A stretch of DNA of 37,142 nucleotides from a virus, in IMG/VR virus record IMGVR_UViG_3300023094_000026, positions 1-37,142 of that record; one strand, 5' to 3'. The notes beneath the pieces were generated by a model that did not search any database, was not told where the DNA came from, and saw only the letters and a list, made by a program, of their open reading frames with translations. Positions 6,803-31,320 of the stretch are shown here, piece by piece. Position numbers and translations under genes: made by a program. Numbering within the stretch: the first letter of the stretch is position 1; every line of letters begins with the position of its first letter.

Positions 6803-7684
6803 TCATTTACCAGACCAACGATAGGCGCCCCGGTTGTTTCTTTCGATTAGCTCGGTGCCAATGAATTTATTTACCGTGCGATAAGCCCAGGCGGATGCAG
6901 AGTTCCTGTTATGGCCCTTAAGCTTCATACCAATCTCGGTGGGTGTGAGCCACTTACCCTTATTCTTTTTCAAGAACTGGATAATGTCCCGGTCCTTCGG
7001 GGTGATCCTAACCTCAACACCGGAGCCATCCCTACCTATTACCGTCTCTCTTTCCCCAAAGTGGTTCCGGGGAAGCATTAAGGCCTGGGCGGCGCTCATT
7101 CCTCTTATTTTGTTTTTTGATGCTAGGCCATGGTCCGTGGGCTTGGACTCGGGATGGGTCTTTTTTATGGCCCCGACAATTATCTGCGCATAGAATAAAA
7201 CCTCTTCAAGAGTATTCTTTTCAATCGCATCAGCAGCATTCATGCGCGAAAAATTATACGCGGTGCTGCGTAGCGCGCCTATATACTTGCGCATTTTTAA
7301 GTCAACACTGCTTACGTTTACCAGGTCGTCATAAACCTTAAACACATGTGATCGCGGCGCGTCTGGCTTAACTCGGGCCGAGATAGCCGCCAATTGGGTG
7401 AATGTGGCGTTACTGGAAGCTTCCGGGGGGAGTTTTTCAAAAACAGCTCGGCGCACACCAACCCAATTAGATAGCGTCCTTGAACTAATTCCACACTCTT
7501 CCGCAAATCGCAGGAGTGTAAATTTATTAGTTTGCGGCGTGCCACCCCAAGATATCTCACAAACCTCCAATGCCACGCGGGCGATCTCCATTTGATTTTG
7601 ATGCCTGCTAGCATAGAGCAGCTTTGCTCTCTCTACGTTTTGCTGCCATAGCGTTTCAATATCAATCTTATTTTCGTTCTTCAT
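6803..7684 (-). CDS. HTH and winged-helix DNA-binding protein (regulator or replication initiator)
   Basis: 293 residues with GAGGACGAT before ATG. A helix-turn-helix is visible at about residues 55-78 (LLRFAEECGISSRTLSNWVGVRR), and a winged-helix-like domain closes the protein (about 225-290: TPKDRDIIQFLKKNKGKWL-TPTEIGMKL ... LIERNNRGAYRW). The middle is helical. Two DNA-binding units at opposite ends suggest a regulator or an origin-binding protein. It lies between the ERF and SSB genes, so a replication or recombination role is reasonable. The gene is visibly more AT-rich than its neighbours, suggesting separate acquisition. Confidence 0.7.
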   Translation of the reverse strand: MKNENKIDIETLWQQNVERAKLLYASRHQNQMEIARVALEVCEISWGGTPQTNKFTLLRFAEECGISSRTLSNWVGVRRAVFEKLPPEASSNATFTQLAAISARVKPDAPRSHVFKVYDDLVNVSSVDLKMRKYIGALRSTAYNFSRMNAADAIEKNTLEEVLFYAQIIVGAIKKTHPESKPTDHGLASKNKIRGMSAAQALMLPRNHFGERETVIGRDGSGVEVRITPKDRDIIQFLKKNKGKWLTPTEIGMKLKGHNRNSASAWAYRTVNKFIGTELIERNNRGAYRWSGK

Positions 7685-20938: not shown

Positions 20939-21041
20939 GAAGGAAGAGGACCTGAGGAACGCCCTTGGCCCCTCGTCCGTGTCAGAGCGCTGGTATCCCG
21001 TTTCCGTCAAGAGCCTGCCGTGGCCGCCGGAGGATGCGTGA
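20826..21041 (+). CDS. Small basic protein upstream of TerS, unknown
   Basis: 71 residues from ATG at 20826 (a TTG at 20790 would add 12). Strongly basic N-terminus (MRRRVTRDNTREILVPSRSP), then a mixed stretch ending WPPEDA. Its TGA overlaps the GTG of the small terminase (GTGA), which argues it is translated. The start lacks a good ribosome-binding site. It shares 113 nt with the preceding frame. Confidence 0.45.
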   Translation: MRRRVTRDNTREILVPSRSPVTVKTPQSLRGVKSGALKKEEDLRNALGPSSVSERWYPVSVKSLPWPPEDA

Positions 21042-21682
21042 AGCCCGTCCTAGAGCGGGTCTTGGATAAAAACGGTGAGGAGTCGGTCCATTTCCACCCC
21101 ACCGCTCGCATGCAGCTCTTCGCTATTAAGAAGTCCGAGTCCCCTGGCCTTGGGGACGGTGATATTGCCAAGGAAATGAACATCGATCCCCAGCTCCCTC
21201 GTAGGTGGGCCGAGCGCTATGGCCGTCACTACCTCGAATGGCTAGAGGAGTACGTTGAGTCTAACGTCACCGGTAACGAGGCCTTGGTCCTAGAGCGTGT
21301 AGGTATGGTGCAGGCTGTTCAGCGGAATAACTACAGTTTCTGGCGCGACATGGCCAAGAAGCACGGCGTGATTAAGGAAGAGGTTAAGGACACAACGCAC
21401 ATAACCATCAATACCGATTTTAGCCATATTTTCGTAGGAGCAGATTTTAATGATGCAAGAAGGAAGATCCTGGACGCCTACAGAGGCCTGGGCAACAAAA
21501 CAGGACCTGGAGTGGTTGATGTTGCTCATGAGCGACTCCAAATATGCGAAGGACGCGAGGATTCAGGAGTTGGCAGTATGCAAGATGGACCCGTGGAGGT
21601 GGTTAACCCACTGGGTGAAGACCGAGGACACGCAGAACAAGGAGAACCCGTTCCAGCCGTTCCCAGGAAAAGTACACCTTGA
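21038..21682 (+). CDS. terS: Small terminase subunit
   Basis: 214 residues from GTG at 21038 (GGAGG four bases upstream, GTGA overlap). An HTH-like unit is visible (GDGDIAKEMNIDPQLPRRWAERYG, about residues 40-65 here split by loops), followed by helices LEEYVESNVTGNEALVLERVG and KKHGVIKEEVKD, a common TerS region. TerS binds the packaging site and feeds DNA to TerL. Its frame runs on 233 nt inside the TerL gene (C-terminal ~75 residues are unusual in composition), so the true end may be functionally dispensable. Confidence 0.72.
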   Translation: MKPVLERVLDKNGEESVHFHPTARMQLFAIKKSESPGLGDGDIAKEMNIDPQLPRRWAERYGRHYLEWLEEYVESNVTGNEALVLERVGMVQAVQRNNYSFWRDMAKKHGVIKEEVKDTTHITINTDFSHIFVGADFNDARRKILDAYRGLGNKTGPGVVDVAHERLQICEGREDSGVGSMQDGPVEVVNPLGEDRGHAEQGEPVPAVPRKSTP

Positions 21683-22163
21683 GGTCCTAACCCGCTACTG
21701 GCAGCAAGAGCAGTACCTTCTTGTGCCTAAAACCCGGCAGGTAACCGCCACGTGGCTCTTTGTTGCCCTCTACTTACACGACTCCATGTTCTACCCCTCA
21801 AGATCGACCATTTTTCAGTGTAAGATTGAAGACGACTCCGACGCTAACCTGAGGCGCGCCGTGATGATTCATGAGAACCTCCCCGATTGGCAGCGTACCT
21901 GGCAGCCGATGCACTACACTTTCTGTAACGCGGAGTTTCCGCGCTCAAGATCCACCATTTTGGCGGTGGCCGCAGGGGCTAAGCACTTCCGGCAGCGCAC
22001 GCTCTCCGGGGCCATGATCGATGAAGCTGCGTTTTGCGAGGAATTGGACGAGGTGCTTGCTGCCGCTAAGCCCGCCCTCGGCAAGATCGGTAGATTTACG
22101 GCCCTAAGCTCGGCCACGCCCAGCATCTTCGGCTCTCTCGTACACGACCTCGTGGGCGCATAG
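21450..22163 (+). CDS. terL: Large terminase, N-terminal ATPase part (split gene)
   Basis: 237 residues. CKMDPWRWLTHWVKTED at 44-60 is the usual TerL entry motif. An adenine/Walker A-like element PKTRQVTATWLF (93-104) is a deviant form lacking the usual Gly-Lys; Walker B is AMIDEAAF (188-195), and the coupling motif SSATPS (220-225) follows. The frame then stops at residue 237, where intact terminases continue into the nuclease domain. AGGAG lies nine bases before ATG; a later start at 21519 is possible. The nuclease half is encoded 1.15 kb downstream. Confidence 0.87.
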   Translation: MMQEGRSWTPTEAWATKQDLEWLMLLMSDSKYAKDARIQELAVCKMDPWRWLTHWVKTEDTQNKENPFQPFPGKVHLEVLTRYWQQEQYLLVPKTRQVTATWLFVALYLHDSMFYPSRSTIFQCKIEDDSDANLRRAVMIHENLPDWQRTWQPMHYTFCNAEFPRSRSTILAVAAGAKHFRQRTLSGAMIDEAAFCEELDEVLAAAKPALGKIGRFTALSSATPSIFGSLVHDLVGA

Positions 22164-22362
22164 AAAAAACTGGTAGAATCGCTCCTCCGCCCTCAGAATA
22201 AAAGGTGGCATTACGCCTCTTGCCACCGCAGGGGATAGTGCTGGACCCCCTTAGGTTTTGAGGTGCGCGATTAACTCCCGCTCACTAGGTTAACTGTTCC
22301 AGTCCTACCGACCCAAGGCGTGAAGGGGCGCACTTCGGTCATCTAACACTTTAGGAGTGCCC
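22164..22362 (+). other. Structured 199-nt spacer inside the split terminase
   Basis: No reading frame. Several stems can form: GGTGGC/GCCACC around 12 nt (22204 region), GGGG/CCCC (22231 region), TGGA/TCCA across ~60 nt, and GACC/GGTC near its end. The density of pairing is above that of neighbouring DNA and recalls self-splicing or regulatory RNA, but I could not place the conserved core of a group I or group II intron. Confidence 0.4.
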
Positions 22363-23316
22363 ATGGACGGTATTGACGACGTAGCGAAGAAGACGCTGGC
22401 TGATCGGGTTTCCGAGTTGCCTGGGAAGGCTGACCGTGAATCGCGTTTAGCGAAAAATAAGCGCTCACAGTTAAGCGGGCCGCCCACAAATGACCTTAAT
22501 GACTTTGATTACGAGAGGCAGCGCTGGCTTACCCCAGAAGAAAGCATGGCAAGAAAAAAAGAGACCCTTAAGAAAATTCGCGGTTTTGATGAAGATGTGG
22601 TCGCCCCTCATGGCAGCGCACTAAAGAACGCCGATAGCACGGCCCCCGCGTACAAGAAGGTCAAGAAGCCTGCCGTAAAAGATGCTGCTGAGAGTAGTTT
22701 GTCCATGACGCGTGGTGTAACAGATTCTAACCCCTTTGCCAAGCTAGAAAATGACTTGCCGCGTGGTGGTCGTGCAATGCGCGTAGCCGCCGAAGAGGGT
22801 CTGGAGCAAGAGGGCAAGCAGGTAGCTAAAAAGGGCCTGGGTAAGCTTGGTCGGATGGCGACCGCAGGTCTGGCTGGTGGCGCCGTGGGTCTTGGGGTCA
22901 ATGCCCTTATGGAGGGCCTAGACGCCGAAGAGACCGGCTCCGAGGAAGAAGACATGGATGTGGCCTCCCAGCGCCAGTTCGAGAAGTCTAGCGCCAAGAT
23001 CAAGGCCAATAAGCCCGCATTGAAGGCCGCCGTAGAGGATGCCGATGAGCCAGACGGTGAGGCCGGTGTTCAAGGCCGCAAGCTCCCATCTACCCTAAAA
23101 GCATCGACCAAGAAGAACTACCAGAACGTGAAGCCTGGAAAAGTTATGGCTGGCCCAAAAGTTAAGCCGGACAGCGATATTGAGAAAGAGTTCCACGTGG
23201 AACTGGCCCGTAACTACGGTGAGCCCGCCGATGAGGCCAACCCCTTCGATAAAGTCGTGGGCCGCGTTATGAAGGATGAGTTTGGGAAGGCCGCTAAGCG
23301 AGTCAATAAGCGCTAG
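22363..23316 (+). CDS. Unknown protein inserted between the two terminase parts
   Basis: 317 residues from ATG at 22363 with AGGAG five bases upstream (GTG at 22357 is also in frame). Strongly charged, Lys/Glu/Asp-rich and probably disordered in places, with one Gly/Ala-rich hydrophobic segment at about residues 165-190 (MATAGLAGGAVGLGVNALM) like those in phage ejection proteins. It is not an HNH, GIY-YIG or LAGLIDADG endonuclease by eye. Its TAG is immediately followed by the ATG of the nuclease part, in the same frame. Structural or ejection protein is one possibility. Confidence 0.6.
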   Translation: MDGIDDVAKKTLADRVSELPGKADRESRLAKNKRSQLSGPPTNDLNDFDYERQRWLTPEESMARKKETLKKIRGFDEDVVAPHGSALKNADSTAPAYKKVKKPAVKDAAESSLSMTRGVTDSNPFAKLENDLPRGGRAMRVAAEEGLEQEGKQVAKKGLGKLGRMATAGLAGGAVGLGVNALMEGLDAEETGSEEEDMDVASQRQFEKSSAKIKANKPALKAAVEDADEPDGEAGVQGRKLPSTLKASTKKNYQNVKPGKVMAGPKVKPDSDIEKEFHVELARNYGEPADEANPFDKVVGRVMKDEFGKAAKRVNKR

Positions 23317-24375
23317 ATGAGCGTAGTAGCCGAGGCCATGCGTAAGTGGCGAGATATCGCTATAGACGCACCGGAAGACGCCTTAGAGGCTCCGATCCCC
23401 GTCCCTGAGGGCATGCGGGCCTGGAAGAACGCTAAGAACGAGTTTGTGGTGGTGGCCTGCCACTACTCAGCCGACCCAGAAAAACGCAATGACGAGTGGT
23501 ACAAGGGCGCCTGCAAGGGTCTTAGGCCCGACCAGATCGAACGCGAGCTAGAGCTTAACTTTGACTCCAAGGCCGGAACTAAGGCGTTCCCCTTCCTGGA
23601 GCGCAACGAGAACCTCTACCGCCTAGATCCCCCCATGCCCATCCCCCATAACTGGAAGATCGTGGTGGGCCTAGACTACGGAGCCCGGAACCCCACCTCC
23701 GTGCACTGGTACGCCATTGACCCTAACCGTAGGTTCTGGTGCTTTGATGAGTTTTATAAGCCCCTAAACGAGCTAAAGGGTGGCTTACCGGCCCTGGCTG
23801 AGTATCTACTCAAACACCCTTACTACGCCCGCATCCGGCACATCGTGGCCGACCCCTCGATCTTCAATAAGGGCCAGAACGTGATCACGACGAAGGAGAC
23901 GAGCGGCAAGTCCTGGGGCACACTCATGTCTATTGCGGAGCTGCTGCAAAAAGAGGGGATTCATAAGCTCCAGCGAGCCAATAACGACCGGATGGCCGGG
24001 ATGGCTCGGGTCCACCAGATGTTCAACTACCGGGGCGAGAAGGATACCAAGCCCTACGCCTTTATCGGTCGCAAGTGTCATAAGGCCTGGTGGGAGTTAA
24101 GCAACCTCATCTACAAGCTGGACGACAAGGAGAACAAAAACGCGGACGAGGACGTGGTTAAGCGAAATGACCACTTCTTTGATGAGTTTAAGTATGCTCT
24201 CCTCTCCGAAGACATCCCGGCGGAAGCCGCCGTGGACCAGACGCACACCGGCATAACGATGGAATCTCTGGAACAAGAGATCGATGATCGTTATGCTAAT
24301 GAGAATCAGGACCCCTTTGCTTGTTCCTTCGCTGAGCTAGATGGCTCCGGCGATTACTTCATGGATGGATTTTAA
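23317..24375 (+). CDS. terL: Large terminase, C-terminal nuclease part (split gene)
   Basis: 352 residues. After a short leader it enters the TerL linker (MRAWKNAKNEFVVVACHYSADPEK, about 33-56) and then the RNase H-like nuclease: GLDYG with Asp120, HIVADPS with Asp179, and DHFFDEFKYAL with Asp285/289, the metal ligands that cut concatemeric DNA. It starts directly after the TAG of the inserted gene. There is no Walker motif in it. It must act with the separate ATPase part, or be joined to it at the RNA or protein level. Confidence 0.87.
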   Translation: MSVVAEAMRKWRDIAIDAPEDALEAPIPVPEGMRAWKNAKNEFVVVACHYSADPEKRNDEWYKGACKGLRPDQIERELELNFDSKAGTKAFPFLERNENLYRLDPPMPIPHNWKIVVGLDYGARNPTSVHWYAIDPNRRFWCFDEFYKPLNELKGGLPALAEYLLKHPYYARIRHIVADPSIFNKGQNVITTKETSGKSWGTLMSIAELLQKEGIHKLQRANNDRMAGMARVHQMFNYRGEKDTKPYAFIGRKCHKAWWELSNLIYKLDDKENKNADEDVVKRNDHFFDEFKYALLSEDIPAEAAVDQTHTGITMESLEQEIDDRYANENQDPFACSFAELDGSGDYFMDGF

Positions 24376-26538
24376 ATGGCAAAAAAACGGCGCGGCGAGC
24401 AGCTACCTAAGAAGCCTAAGGGCGCAAAAACGATCCTCGACGATGGCGCAGGCCTCATGGAGGTCGCCCTTAAAGAGTCCGGGATGGACCGTCAAAAAGC
24501 TGCCACCTTTCGGGAAGAGGCCAAGAAGAAGGTCAAACCCGTCCCCTCTCCCAATGCCAAAAAGTGGCTAGATAAGATCAACCGCTCCAAGAAGGTGAGA
24601 AAAGACTTCCTGGACGAGGCCGAAAACTTCTGGCGCATGTACCAGGGCGACTACTCTAGCCGCCGCCGCCGCCGTAACTCTTATAACTGGGATGTGATCT
24701 CGGTCAACTTCGTTTACTCCCACGTAGAGACGATTACCCCTTCCGTCTTCTCTGGCCCCCCCTGCATCCGCGTGCGCCCCAAGCCCAAAGTGGGCGAATC
24801 CCTAAAAGAAGCCGAAGTGCGTGCCCGCAGCATGGAGCTGGTGCTTAACTATTGGGCTAAAGAGTTAGGGCTGGATGCCGAACTAAAGGATGTCTTCCTT
24901 GACACCTTCTTTGGCGCCGCCACCACGGAGATGGGCTGGGAGACTCAGATCGATGAGCACAAGCCCACGGCTGAGGTGCCCGATGAAAGCTCTAGCGATG
25001 AGGGTAACGGCACCACGACCGACGAGGTAATCGACGAGCCGGAAGTGACCATCATTAAGGACCGCCCCTTCATTAAGCGGGTGGAGCTAAAGCACCTGTA
25101 CCTTGACCCGGACGCCACGCGCCGCCGGGACTGCTCCTTTATCGGCATCGAAGAGATCCTGCGCTGGAACGACTTCATTGCCTCCCCTAAGTTTACGGAA
25201 AAGGCCAAGAAGTTCCTAAAACCCCAGTACTACCCCAAAGAGCAAGAAGAGCGGGAGCGCGATGGTGAACGGGAGTGGATGGGCCGCGAGCCCAACTCTT
25301 CGGATAAGGAATGGATCAAGATCGTCACGATCTGGGACAAGGAAAACCGCAAAAAGTACGTGGTGACCCAAGGCTATAGCTACTTCCTCAATACCGACGA
25401 CGAGGACGGCGAAGACTGGCCATACGAGATCGATTACAAGGAAGATCCGTTCCCGATCTGCATCCACGACGCTAAGACTGATTTTTGCTCCCCTTATACG
25501 TGGTCGGAGTTCAAGGCGGGAGAGCCCCAGATCAGAGAGATGAACCGAATCCGTGCTGCCATCCAGGTGCACGTGAAGCGCTCGCTTCCTAAGTACGTAT
25601 ACACGGGAGCGGCGGGCTCCAGGTCCAAGATCAATAAGCTCATGATGGCCCGAAGCGACGAGGCGACCGAGCTAGATAACATCGACGCCATTAAGGCGTT
25701 TGAAACGGCTCCGATCCCGCCCCAGCTCTTCGAGTTCAATAGCATGTCCCGAGATGACCTAACCAACGTCATGGGGACATCTGAATATCAGAACAACTCT
25801 ATTGCTGATACCGCGACCGAAGCTCAGATCATGGAAGGCCGAGGACAAGCCCGTAAGTCCCAGCGCTCGCGCCAGTGGGAGCAGTACGTCGTTGAGATCT
25901 TCGCCAAGCTTGCCCAGCTCTGCCAGCAGAACATGTCCGAGGAGCTGGCTGTCCAGATTGCAGGCCCCAACGGGATCGAGTGGATGACGGTGACGCCCGA
26001 AGAGATTCAAGGCGAGTTCTACTACGATATTGAGCCAGGGATCATGGAGTACAAGAACGAGGCGCTGAGGAAATCCCAGCTCTTGAAGTTCTTGGAGCTG
26101 ACCAACGGGGACCCACACGCCAACCGCCGAGCCCTGATCATGAAGGTGGCCCAGGAGTTTGACCTAGATCCTACGGAAGTCGTAACTCCCGAAGAGGAGA
26201 TGCCTCAAGGCGAGCCCGCTAAGCCCAACCTCAAGTTCGATAACATCGACCCCGCGACGATCCAGGACGCAACGGTCTTGAATGCGCTCATTATCGCGGC
26301 TCTCACCCAGAACGGCGTGCAGATTAGCCCTGAGCTTGCCGCTGCCGCTCAAGGGATGCCGCCTCCCCCTCCGCAGCCCGGAGAGCCACAGGCCGACCTT
26401 GGCGGGGCTCCTCCCACGCCGGGAGATATGCAAGCAGCATCCGGCAAGGATATCGCCGGTAACGGAATGAGCCCGAACGGCAATGAGGGTATGCCCCCCG
26501 TGCAAGGTAACATCATGGATGGGATGGGACAGGTATGA
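24376..26538 (+). CDS. Portal protein
   Basis: 720 residues, ATG abutting the TerL stop (TAAATG). Portal features: WRMYQGDYSSRRRRRNSYNWDVISVNFVYSHVET-like region (about 77-117), then GPPCIRVRPKP, YWAKELGLDAELKDVFLDTFFG and a long helical core. The C-terminus is Pro/Gly/Met-rich low complexity (PPPPPQPGEP; GMSPNGNEGM). Forms the dodecameric ring through which DNA enters and tail attaches. Length and style match podo/siphoviral portals near SU10-type adaptors. Confidence 0.88.
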   Translation: MAKKRRGEQLPKKPKGAKTILDDGAGLMEVALKESGMDRQKAATFREEAKKKVKPVPSPNAKKWLDKINRSKKVRKDFLDEAENFWRMYQGDYSSRRRRRNSYNWDVISVNFVYSHVETITPSVFSGPPCIRVRPKPKVGESLKEAEVRARSMELVLNYWAKELGLDAELKDVFLDTFFGAATTEMGWETQIDEHKPTAEVPDESSSDEGNGTTTDEVIDEPEVTIIKDRPFIKRVELKHLYLDPDATRRRDCSFIGIEEILRWNDFIASPKFTEKAKKFLKPQYYPKEQEERERDGEREWMGREPNSSDKEWIKIVTIWDKENRKKYVVTQGYSYFLNTDDEDGEDWPYEIDYKEDPFPICIHDAKTDFCSPYTWSEFKAGEPQIREMNRIRAAIQVHVKRSLPKYVYTGAAGSRSKINKLMMARSDEATELDNIDAIKAFETAPIPPQLFEFNSMSRDDLTNVMGTSEYQNNSIADTATEAQIMEGRGQARKSQRSRQWEQYVVEIFAKLAQLCQQNMSEELAVQIAGPNGIEWMTVTPEEIQGEFYYDIEPGIMEYKNEALRKSQLLKFLELTNGDPHANRRALIMKVAQEFDLDPTEVVTPEEEMPQGEPAKPNLKFDNIDPATIQDATVLNALIIAALTQNGVQISPELAAAAQGMPPPPPQPGEPQADLGGAPPTPGDMQAASGKDIAGNGMSPNGNEGMPPVQGNIMDGMGQV

Positions 26539-26822
26539 GAATTCACATCTATAAGACCTGCGAAAACCCCGAGTGCGCTTCAAAGGCCAATGGCGAATTA
26601 GAAGGAATTAATCTCTACGGAGATACGCTCCACCACGTGGAACTAGACGAGGACAAGCGCAAGTACACGGAGTGCTCTATCTGCGGAGAAGTTAAGGGAT
26701 ACCGTGACCCCGACGCTTACAACACGCGCTACCCTTACTACTCTGGCTCTGCCGGGGTGGAGTTTCAATCTAAGGAGCACGAGCGGTCTTACGTGCGGAA
26801 GCACAAGTTAGTCGGCGTTTAG
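26535..26822 (+). CDS. Small zinc-finger-like protein
   Basis: 95 residues, ATGA overlap with the portal stop. C-x4-C (KTCENPECAS, residues 8-14) and C-x2-C (ECSICGE, about 45-51) likely bind zinc. Tyr-rich second half. Similar small Cys4 proteins often follow portal genes; role unknown. Its 3' end overlaps the convergent HNH gene by 15 nt. Confidence 0.6.
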   Translation: MRIHIYKTCENPECASKANGELEGINLYGDTLHHVELDEDKRKYTECSICGEVKGYRDPDAYNTRYPYYSGSAGVEFQSKEHERSYVRKHKLVGV

Positions 26823-27311
26823 GCTTCTTTTCTGCCTAGGGCGAACTATGTATGGGTTGACCACTGAATGTGCGGCCCCATGATGTGCATAACACAGAGG
26901 GACTACGGCGAGTGGGTCATCATAGTCGACGTGGTGTAAGTGGTCGTACTCTTGTTGGCAATTCAACACCGCGCACTTGTAGGAGTTTTTAGCATAAGCC
27001 CTTGTAGAAACGGCCCTTGCTCGATTTTTCTTTTTATCTGTCTCTCTGCGCCGCCTGGCGTGGATAATTGCTATGGTTCTAGCGTTTGATGTCCGCATGT
27101 ATATTTTTCGGCATTCTCGGCAGGCATTATTTAGCCCGTCTTTGGCGTTCCCGTTTTTTGTAAAAAATGGCTTCCACCCAAGAATGGGGTCTGGAGAGAG
27201 CGTAAGACGACATCGCGAACACGTTTTTTCTAGTTTTTGGGTCTGTTTGTTAAATCTGGCAAGCATGGTGAAGTGGGTGATAAAATATATGACCGTATTT
27301 TGCAAGTTCAT
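26808..27311 (-). CDS. HNH homing-type endonuclease
   Basis: 167 residues on the strand opposite to the late operon. An N-terminal zinc finger has Cys31, Cys34, Cys64 and Cys67 (TCSRCRL ... GLNNACRECRK), then basic residues (RRRRETDKKK), and a C-terminal HNH unit: CAVLNC, HLHHVDYDDP (His126/127) and LCYAHHGAAH (His143/144). Free-standing HNH genes spread as homing elements into phage genomes. The gene is AT-richer than its neighbours and sits between portal/zinc-finger and scaffold genes. Start may alternatively be ATG 27266. Confidence 0.85.
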   Translation of the reverse strand: MNLQNTVIYFITHFTMLARFNKQTQKLEKTCSRCRLTLSPDPILGWKPFFTKNGNAKDGLNNACRECRKIYMRTSNARTIAIIHARRRRETDKKKNRARAVSTRAYAKNSYKCAVLNCQQEYDHLHHVDYDDPLAVVPLCYAHHGAAHSVVNPYIVRPRQKRSLNAD

Positions 27312-29656: not shown

Positions 29657-30178
29657 ATGAAACTGATTCTAGCTCTAGCGTTGAGCCTGTGCCTCGGCAC
29701 TCCTGCTCACGCCTATCTCTCGGCCTCTGGCAACGACCCCTCCAGCGGATCTTACGACACCGAAACCAAGGTGGCCGTAAAGTCCGAAGTGGCGCTCTAT
29801 TCGGACGCTATCGCTGTAGGACAGGGCCTCTACTACTCTGAAACTGAGCTGACCGGCCTTTACAAGGTAAGCCGTTTCTACTCGGGTACCGGCTTTGACG
29901 CCGCTTCCGCTAAGCAGGTAGCCTGCATCGCGGCTCGCGCGGTGGCAACGGGTGACACGGCTGGATTTCCTTGCGTGACCCGTGGTTACGTAGCGAATGC
30001 CATCTATGATGCTGCGGCCCCTATCTTGGTAGGTAACTACCTCTGCGTGGGCACTGCCGCCTCCGTTAAGGGTAAGCTCATCTCCTGCGGAGCCTCGGTT
30101 GTAAGCCCCTTTGTGGCGCTTGAAGCTAAGGCATCCGGCTCTGGTACGGACCTTGAGGTCTCGGTAGAGAGCAAGTAG
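29657..30178 (+). CDS. Exported decoration-like protein with signal peptide
   Basis: 173 residues from ATG at 29657, AAGGAG upstream. Residues 1-19 are a clear Sec signal (MKLILALALSLCLGTPAHA|YLSAS). The mature protein is small, beta-rich, with VTRGYVAN, VGNYLCVGT and ASGSGTDLEVSVESK-like ends that resemble capsid decoration proteins with SH3-like folds, and it sits in the usual decoration position behind the capsid gene. The mature chain has four cysteines (QVACIAARA, FPCVTRG, NYLCVGT, LISCGAS). A signal peptide would direct it to the periplasm, contrary to a cytoplasmic capsid role. Confidence 0.72.
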   Translation: MKLILALALSLCLGTPAHAYLSASGNDPSSGSYDTETKVAVKSEVALYSDAIAVGQGLYYSETELTGLYKVSRFYSGTGFDAASAKQVACIAARAVATGDTAGFPCVTRGYVANAIYDAAAPILVGNYLCVGTAASVKGKLISCGASVVSPFVALEAKASGSGTDLEVSVESK

Positions 30179-31320
30179 TGCGATTTGCAAAGTACGGGGT
30201 TGGGGGAATGTTCTTCCTCCTACCCCTCTTTTTTCTTCTCCCTCCGCTAGCTAACTCCTTTGAGGCACAGATCCAAGGGGCCAAGCTCATGCTCGTCTTC
30301 GGGCTGGGGAACCTGTTCTTTGCCGTGTACCTAGGCAAGAAGATCCATCCCTCCTTCTTTTTGATTCATGCCGCGTTTACTGTGGGCGCCCTCTTTACGG
30401 GCTTTGGGGCTATGCAGCTCTACCCCTTCGTATACTGGTCAGCCGCCGCAGGTCTTACCCTTCTCTTTTTGACTCTGGAAGAGGAGACGCAGGTCCTTCT
30501 CCTTCGCTGCGTGGTCTGGGGGGGTGTGGCTTCCTCTATGCTCGCTTTTCTACAGGTCTTAGACCTTGACCCTATCCTTACCTATGCGCCCGGAATATCG
30601 GACGCTGACCGGGTATTACCGGTGGGGCTTATGGGTCAGACGACTAAGTTTGGGGCGCTGCTGGCGATCCTGATCGGCGTAGCCTTCGGACTTAAGGACT
30701 ATTCGGCGGCATTACTTATGACGGTCGCAGCGGTCGCCACGAATAGCTCATTCACCTACCTGGCGGTATTTGGAGCGCTTATAGTGAACGCTCGCTACCT
30801 GCTGGGCCGTTTTGTGACTGTCGCAATTTGCATCAGCTTCTTTTTTACTGCCGCAATCCTCTGGGCCTTCTCGCCCGGATCGGCGCTGCTCTTAGATAAC
30901 GGGCGCTACCTCGTGTGGTGGACGACGCTAGAGGCCTGGTGGAATGGGCCTAAGCTCTTGGGGTTTGGTCCCGGCTCCTTTGCTTATCTATACGCGGAGA
31001 ACTTTCAGCCCAAGTCCCTGGTCTACGGGTCTTTCCTCCAGGCGCATAACGATTACATCCAGGCCCTGTTTGAGTTTGGCCTCATGGGCGCAGCCGTGAT
31101 GGCGGCATTGCTCTTCTTTATTGGGCGACACTTCTGCCTGTACTGGTGGGGCTCACGCTACCAGGAGAAGGCCCCTCTAGTGATCGCTGCCGAGGGCGGA
31201 CTGATTGCTATCGTGCTTAACGGGATGGGGAATTTTCCTTTCCAGTTAGCCCCGCACTTTTTGCTCGCGACCATTTGTTTTGCTATCATAGTCACATACC
31301 AACCACGGAAGGACTGGTGA
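30178..31320 (+). CDS. O-antigen ligase/polymerase-like membrane protein (Wzy_C type)
   Basis: 380 residues, GTG overlapping the upstream TAG (TAGTG). Ten or more hydrophobic segments. The characteristic large periplasmic loop is at about 232-298: NGRYLVWW (Arg243), LLGFGPGSFAYLY (261-272), QAHNDYIQALFEFGLMG (288-304, with His290). In O-antigen ligase and Wzy proteins these GR-x-x-x-W, G-x-GPG and H-N-x-(Y/F)-x-x-x-L-x-E-x-G motifs mark the active loop. Likely modifies or extends surface polysaccharide of the host. In phages Wzy-like genes cause seroconversion, usually in lysogeny modules; here the gene is inside the virion operon. Confidence 0.85.
   Translation: MRFAKYGVGGMFFLLPLFFLLPPLANSFEAQIQGAKLMLVFGLGNLFFAVYLGKKIHPSFFLIHAAFTVGALFTGFGAMQLYPFVYWSAAAGLTLLFLTLEEETQVLLLRCVVWGGVASSMLAFLQVLDLDPILTYAPGISDADRVLPVGLMGQTTKFGALLAILIGVAFGLKDYSAALLMTVAAVATNSSFTYLAVFGALIVNARYLLGRFVTVAICISFFFTAAILWAFSPGSALLLDNGRYLVWWTTLEAWWNGPKLLGFGPGSFAYLYAENFQPKSLVYGSFLQAHNDYIQALFEFGLMGAAVMAALLFFIGRHFCLYWWGSRYQEKAPLVIAAEGGLIAIVLNGMGNFPFQLAPHFLLATICFAIIVTYQPRKDW

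Follow-up and report, generated by a model that had tools for sequence, protein, structure and literature searches.

The window analysed here is the IMG/VR virus record IMGVR_UViG_3300023094_000026, 37,142 bases from an uncultured bacterial virus, in which the large terminase subunit (TerL) is encoded as two separate open reading frames (ORFs). On the + strand, an ATPase ORF is followed by a gap of 1,153 bp (22164-23316), a nuclease ORF and the portal gene. The ATPase ORF (21450-22163) encodes the N-terminal piece of TerL, the ATPase core, as a polypeptide of 237 amino acids; it ends in TAG and is preceded by a GGAG sequence resembling a ribosome-binding site. The gap is made up of a non-coding spacer (22164-22362; 199 bp up to the likely ATG) and an intervening gene on the + strand (22363-23316), which has 317 codons from this ATG and an alternative GTG start at 22357. 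The nuclease ORF (23317-24375) encodes the C-terminal piece, a free-standing lid plus RNase H-like nuclease of 352 amino acids with an alternative ATG start at 23338. Immediately 3' of it, also on the + strand, lies the gene of an SU10-like portal protein (24376-26538). An initial annotation, made from the sequence alone, had given the start of the ATPase ORF, the end of the nuclease ORF, the gap length and the 317-codon gene correctly according to the ORF table.

The ATPase ORF matched phrog_2 (terminase large subunit) in a PHROG search with an E value of 6e-7. It contains a Walker A-like sequence (KTRQVTAT; residues 94-101, window 21729-21752), the Walker B motif MIDEAAF and the coupling motif SSATP. 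The last two motifs mark the core of a TerL ATPase, and in profile alignment residues 31-223 match residues 1-188 of the RM378 TerL (E 1.5e-17). The ORF had been described as stopping right after SSATP; its stop codon lies 14 codons further. The nuclease ORF matched phrog_5653 (5e-8) and phrog_10250 (6e-8), both terminase large subunit families. Its residues 37-139 align with residues 202-295 of the RM378 TerL (E 4.1e-5), the intact reference used within an alignment of six sequences. The footprints of the two pieces on RM378 are thus separated by 13 residues only. Plain BLAST gave the same order of the pieces on intact TerL, and the single-chain profile phrog_2 is matched over 256-400 by the window ATPase and over 422-603 by the nuclease of a related contig (L090, see below). 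The split of TerL into two ORFs is therefore confirmed. As the pieces are collinear with single-chain TerLs and this close together, no essential stretch has been lost between them; the initial annotation had proposed this comparison as a check, and the gap from residue 188 to 202 leaves no room for a large essential loss.

Nuclease residues 37-80 are the counterpart of the lid part of intact TerLs, which places the break within the ATPase domain, past the coupling motif and short of the lid. The lid is carried by the nuclease piece; the initial annotation had instead let the nuclease ORF start in the linker. The part of the ATPase domain past the coupling motif, commonly known as the lid, spans nuclease residues 37-82 (23425-23562, + strand) and matches RM378 TerL from residue 202. 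Upstream of it, the C-terminal piece has acquired a new N-terminal extension of about 30 residues (codons 8-36, 23338-23424, + strand). Downstream lies the nuclease domain (residues 83-301, 23563-24219, + strand), recognised by its fold and invariant residues. A structure model of the whole piece reached a mean predicted local distance difference test score (pLDDT) of 72.3, with low confidence in the lid part. Model residues 83-301 were superposed on the D6E TerL nuclease domain (5oe8) with a Z score of 19.7 and a root-mean-square deviation of 2.4 over 181 residues. The fold also matches the nucleases of P22, SPP1 and T4-like phages and is RNase H-like with an acidic metal site. D120, D179, H286 and Y293 are invariant in 25 aligned sequences, and D289 is conserved in at least 90% of them. 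Single-protein scans with the nuclease and the portal, sequence searches of the PDB and a plasmid search gave no useful lead.

The contents of the gap were also characterized. The spacer had been described as structured, but its folding does not stand out from that of shuffled sequence (z -0.66; 53 of 200 shuffles do equally well), and this description was rejected. Neither a sigma-70 promoter nor a + strand terminator pattern was found in 22164-22362. The intervening gene is preceded by an AGGAG-type ribosome site and had no match in Pfam or PHROG at E<=1, including homing endonuclease and intein families; on both points the initial annotation was borne out. A weak match of its residues 15-79 to an internal virion protein of Cyanophage NATL2A-133 (E 0.03) was not used. 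The product has a glycine-rich stretch that gives the impression of a membrane or virion protein. GC content at third codon positions (GC3) is 0.60 in this gene and 0.72-0.73 in the ATPase, nuclease and portal genes. No base separates the TAG of the intervening gene (23314-23316) from the nuclease ATG, and no clear ribosome site was found 5' of the nuclease start at 23317.

Two related contigs from other metagenomes in IMG/VR were identified, L090 by a search with the major capsid protein (MCP) and L109 by a scan for nuclease motifs. L090 is the closer relative, with an MCP 74% identical and a nuclease 62-63% identical to those of the window. In L090 the nuclease is again an ORF of its own; it is preceded by an ORF at least 126 codons long, then by TAA, 3 nt and a GTG start. 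Homology of this upstream ORF with the intervening gene of the window was rejected (E 0.20, no tblastx match). L109 is more distant (nuclease 30-34% identical, ATPase 46% over 67 amino acids) and carries both halves with the same breakpoint: its ATPase extends 17 residues beyond SSANP, and that of the window 14 beyond SSATP. The gap in L109 holds four ORFs, namely a cytidylyltransferase-like ORF, one matching tape-measure/endolysin PHROGs, a small ORF and an FkbM methyltransferase. These are followed by the nuclease and a portal-like ORF, called from its position and length. The cytidylyltransferase-like and FkbM-methyltransferase genes of this cargo (253-2231 of the reverse complement) could modify host surface sugars.

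The free-standing nuclease is under purifying selection. Between the window and L090, the ratio of nonsynonymous to synonymous differences (pN/pS) was 0.27 for the nuclease, 0.25 for the MCP and 0.36 for the portal, with synonymous sites saturated in the nuclease and portal. Conservation extends into the new N-terminus, where codons 9-36 showed a pN/pS of 0.19 in frame, against 1.9 and 2.5 when read in the two alternative frames; this segment thus evolves as protein. No similarity above chance between the window and L090 was found 5' of the nuclease start. Protein conservation that begins at the ORF's own start fits a separate gene, not an exon preceded by an intron. For the ATPase, the 67-residue block shared with L109 gave a pN/pS of 0.47, with synonymous sites saturated.

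The arrangement was set against a census of 167 records, among which 157 had a nuclease match and 132 a complete nuclease ORF. Three of the complete ORFs start at the lid (window, L090 and L109), 128 are fused to an ATPase and one has a nonsense stop. The census was sampled by nuclease motifs and includes many near-copies, so that it gives a contrast and not a frequency; its counts exclude four named phages with intact TerLs (L169-L172). Six of the 128 fused ORFs were flagged by a length cut-off and are short intact TerLs of 427-488 amino acids. The window ATPase had no match in records L111-L168, where TerLs are mostly HMO-like. The record with the nonsense stop, L044, was rejected as a split TerL: one in-frame stop codon (2042-2044) interrupts the ATPase region of its HMO-2011-like terL. 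In a nuclease tree of 42 rows, the window, L090 and L109 fall on one side of a branch with support 97/90. Judged from these relatives, the split appears to be inherited and not an accident.

Several ways of restoring a single chain were considered. A split-intein terL was rejected, as no Pfam intein family was detected in either TerL ORF at E<=1 and the 14 residues past SSATP are too few for the N-terminal part of an intein. Recoding or read-through of TAG was likewise rejected: 5 of the 16 genes checked in the window terminate in TAG, the ATPase frame beyond its TAG meets both TAG and TAA, and in L090 the codon before the nuclease is TAA, not TAG. A search of Rfam, which answers the intron check proposed in the initial annotation, detected neither group I nor group II introns, whether over the window (gathering scores), over 21900-23600 (E<=10) or over L090 and L109 (E<=1). 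The window therefore encodes a protein of one family as two collinear ORFs with neither a detected intron nor an intein.

The best explanation, and in our judgement a likely one, is an inherited, unspliced TerL of two subunits whose genes flank a cargo slot. The initial annotation had leaned towards two subunits over an excised RNA, and this leaning gains support from the L090 and L109 nucleases, the lack of an Rfam intron and the conservation from the nuclease's own start. Alternatively, an unrecognised self-splicing intron containing the inserted gene could unite the two halves at the mRNA level, as happens in Jug phages and Staphylococcus phage fRuSau02. Group I introns in terL with splicing reads are described in published reports (PMC12363816; PMC5618024; PMC11878797), the Jug phage introns average about 206 nt (PMC12363816), near the 193-199 nt of the spacer, and a very divergent group I or II intron may evade Rfam. 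Yet the nuclease coding sequence is conserved from its own start, leaving no non-coding room 5' for the 3' half of an intron, the L109 gap carries four other ORFs, the spacer folds in an ordinary way, and the Rfam searches were negative even at relaxed thresholds; we consider such an intron unlikely.

A degenerate or recently broken terminase, in a phage that is defective or uses another terminase, would agree with the replaced Walker A glycine and with the lower GC3 of the insert than of its neighbours. It is very unlikely given that purifying selection on the nuclease is comparable to that on the MCP and portal, that the window has only one place in its 37 kb encoding this TerL nuclease, and that the distant L109 has the same break, which is impossible for a fresh lesion. 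An assembly chimera of two phages might be suspected in an IMG/VR record that has no curated genome behind it, but the free-standing nuclease recurs in two further contigs from other metagenomes and the stop codon of the insert is immediately followed by the start codon of the nuclease, so that a chimera seems extremely improbable.

Some observations weigh against the two-subunit TerL. The position of the P-loop glycine is occupied by Thr99 in the window ATPase, which departs from a canonical Walker A; five of six related ATPases examined have Gly there (RM378, Mel-JY01, immuto, L008 and L009), while the sixth, I1_18, did not fit the Walker A search pattern. With Thr in this motif, ATP hydrolysis by the piece is not assured. 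The initial annotation had held that all key catalytic residues are kept and that the enzyme is probably functional; MIDEAAF, SSATP and the nuclease acidic site are indeed retained, but the Walker A glycine is not, and with this motif altered full function is less well supported than was stated. The structure model of the ATPase piece is poor (mean pLDDT 43.9) and gives no view of the interface. Besides the window, both halves were seen only in L109, which sits on a long branch (1.9); the L090 contig starts inside the ORF upstream of its nuclease, so that its ATPase lies outside it. Intact close relatives may exist unsampled. Finally, nuclease-only TerL families are already catalogued in PHROG (199, 228 and 145 columns), perhaps as exons; these short families show that such fragments have been recorded, with no reason stated.

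Under the two-subunit explanation, TerL would be made as two polypeptides, an ATPase-core subunit and a lid-plus-nuclease subunit, which would assemble non-covalently. Both would come from one operon, with an mRNA left unspliced in vivo, and would join into each subunit of a working motor. A single split in the ancestor of the phage lineage, separating coupling motif from lid within the ATPase domain, would account for the shared break, and the gap would since have been occupied by different, unrelated genes. Translation of the nuclease subunit would begin at the start codon of its ORF and is probably coupled to termination at the preceding gene, because the ORF has no clear ribosome site and its start abuts the stop codon of that gene (nearly so in L090). 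More tentatively, with an obligate two-subunit TerL the phage might adjust the amount of nuclease, swap it or let it go after translocation and before cutting; the gap would then remain a site for cargo in the long term, and how strongly the cargo gene is translated would set the dose of the nuclease subunit; we regard this as possible but rather doubtful.

Few machines of tailed phages are as conserved as TerL, and the way in which ATP hydrolysis in its core drives, by way of the lid, the movement and cleavage of DNA is still being worked out. A natural cut exactly at the boundary of coupling motif and lid would allow both parts to be made, mixed and timed separately. Marker-gene surveys that demand a full-length TerL would miss or misjudge phages of this kind.

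Phage enzymes that work as two pieces have been described before, among them Aeh1 NrdA and the 43A/43B polymerase of phage 25; in phage 44RR, gene 43A/43B is split by untranslated sequence, and a homing endonuclease is frequent but not required (PMC2988022). Like these genes in pieces (Aeh1 nrdA-a/b, T4 topoisomerase with its mobA insertion at gene 60, phage 25 43A/43B), the window has two polypeptides for one enzyme with no intron or intein. In the cases studied the pieces form a working enzyme. Those enzymes serve metabolism or replication, and a homing endonuclease divides most of them, in contrast to a packaging motor whose gap holds no recognised homing endonuclease and varies in content between relatives. 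The intron-split terL genes of Jug phages, fRuSau02 and Bastillevirinae (PMC12363816; PMC5618024; PMC11878797) are also interrupted by an ORF-bearing stretch, but splicing restores a single protein there, whereas no intron was detected in the window and the second half begins with a start codon of its own. In herpesvirus UL15 (PMC3079670), the two terL parts also lie apart, and the unrelated intervening genes differ between subfamilies; unlike the window, UL15 consists of two exons joined by spliceosomal splicing in a eukaryotic virus, and most of its gap genes are encoded in the reverse orientation. Single-chain TerLs (RM378 and the D6E, HMO-2011 and T4 types) have identical domains in identical order, as the nuclease fold match to D6E illustrates, but form one polypeptide, in which RM378 residues 188-202 are continuous. 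No report of an unspliced two-polypeptide TerL was found in a literature search that covered few subscription papers.

Several neighbouring genes were noted. The ORF at 21020-21682 (+ strand), 5' of the ATPase piece, is a candidate small terminase, which we take it to be from its position and an HTH (helix-turn-helix)-like stretch; it had no family match in Pfam or PHROG. It shares 233 bp with the ATPase ORF in a different frame, an unusually long overlap for such a pair. On the minus strand, the gene at 6803-7684 weakly resembles the ferric uptake regulator family, a match (2.4e-4) that narrowly misses the cut-off of Pfam. An HNH-endonuclease-like gene (26808-27311, minus strand; phrog_2340 'endonuclease', 6e-11) lies within a stretch of 670 bp that separates two morphogenesis genes, and the counterpart of this stretch in L090, about 177 bp, is too short for the gene. 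Elements such as this may move in the phage lineage; a link with the TerL split is speculation. The gene at 30178-31320, between the MCP and tail genes, encodes an O-antigen-ligase-like membrane protein (Wzy_C, 7e-7, just under Pfam's cut-off) and is found in the same place in L090 (6544-7704).

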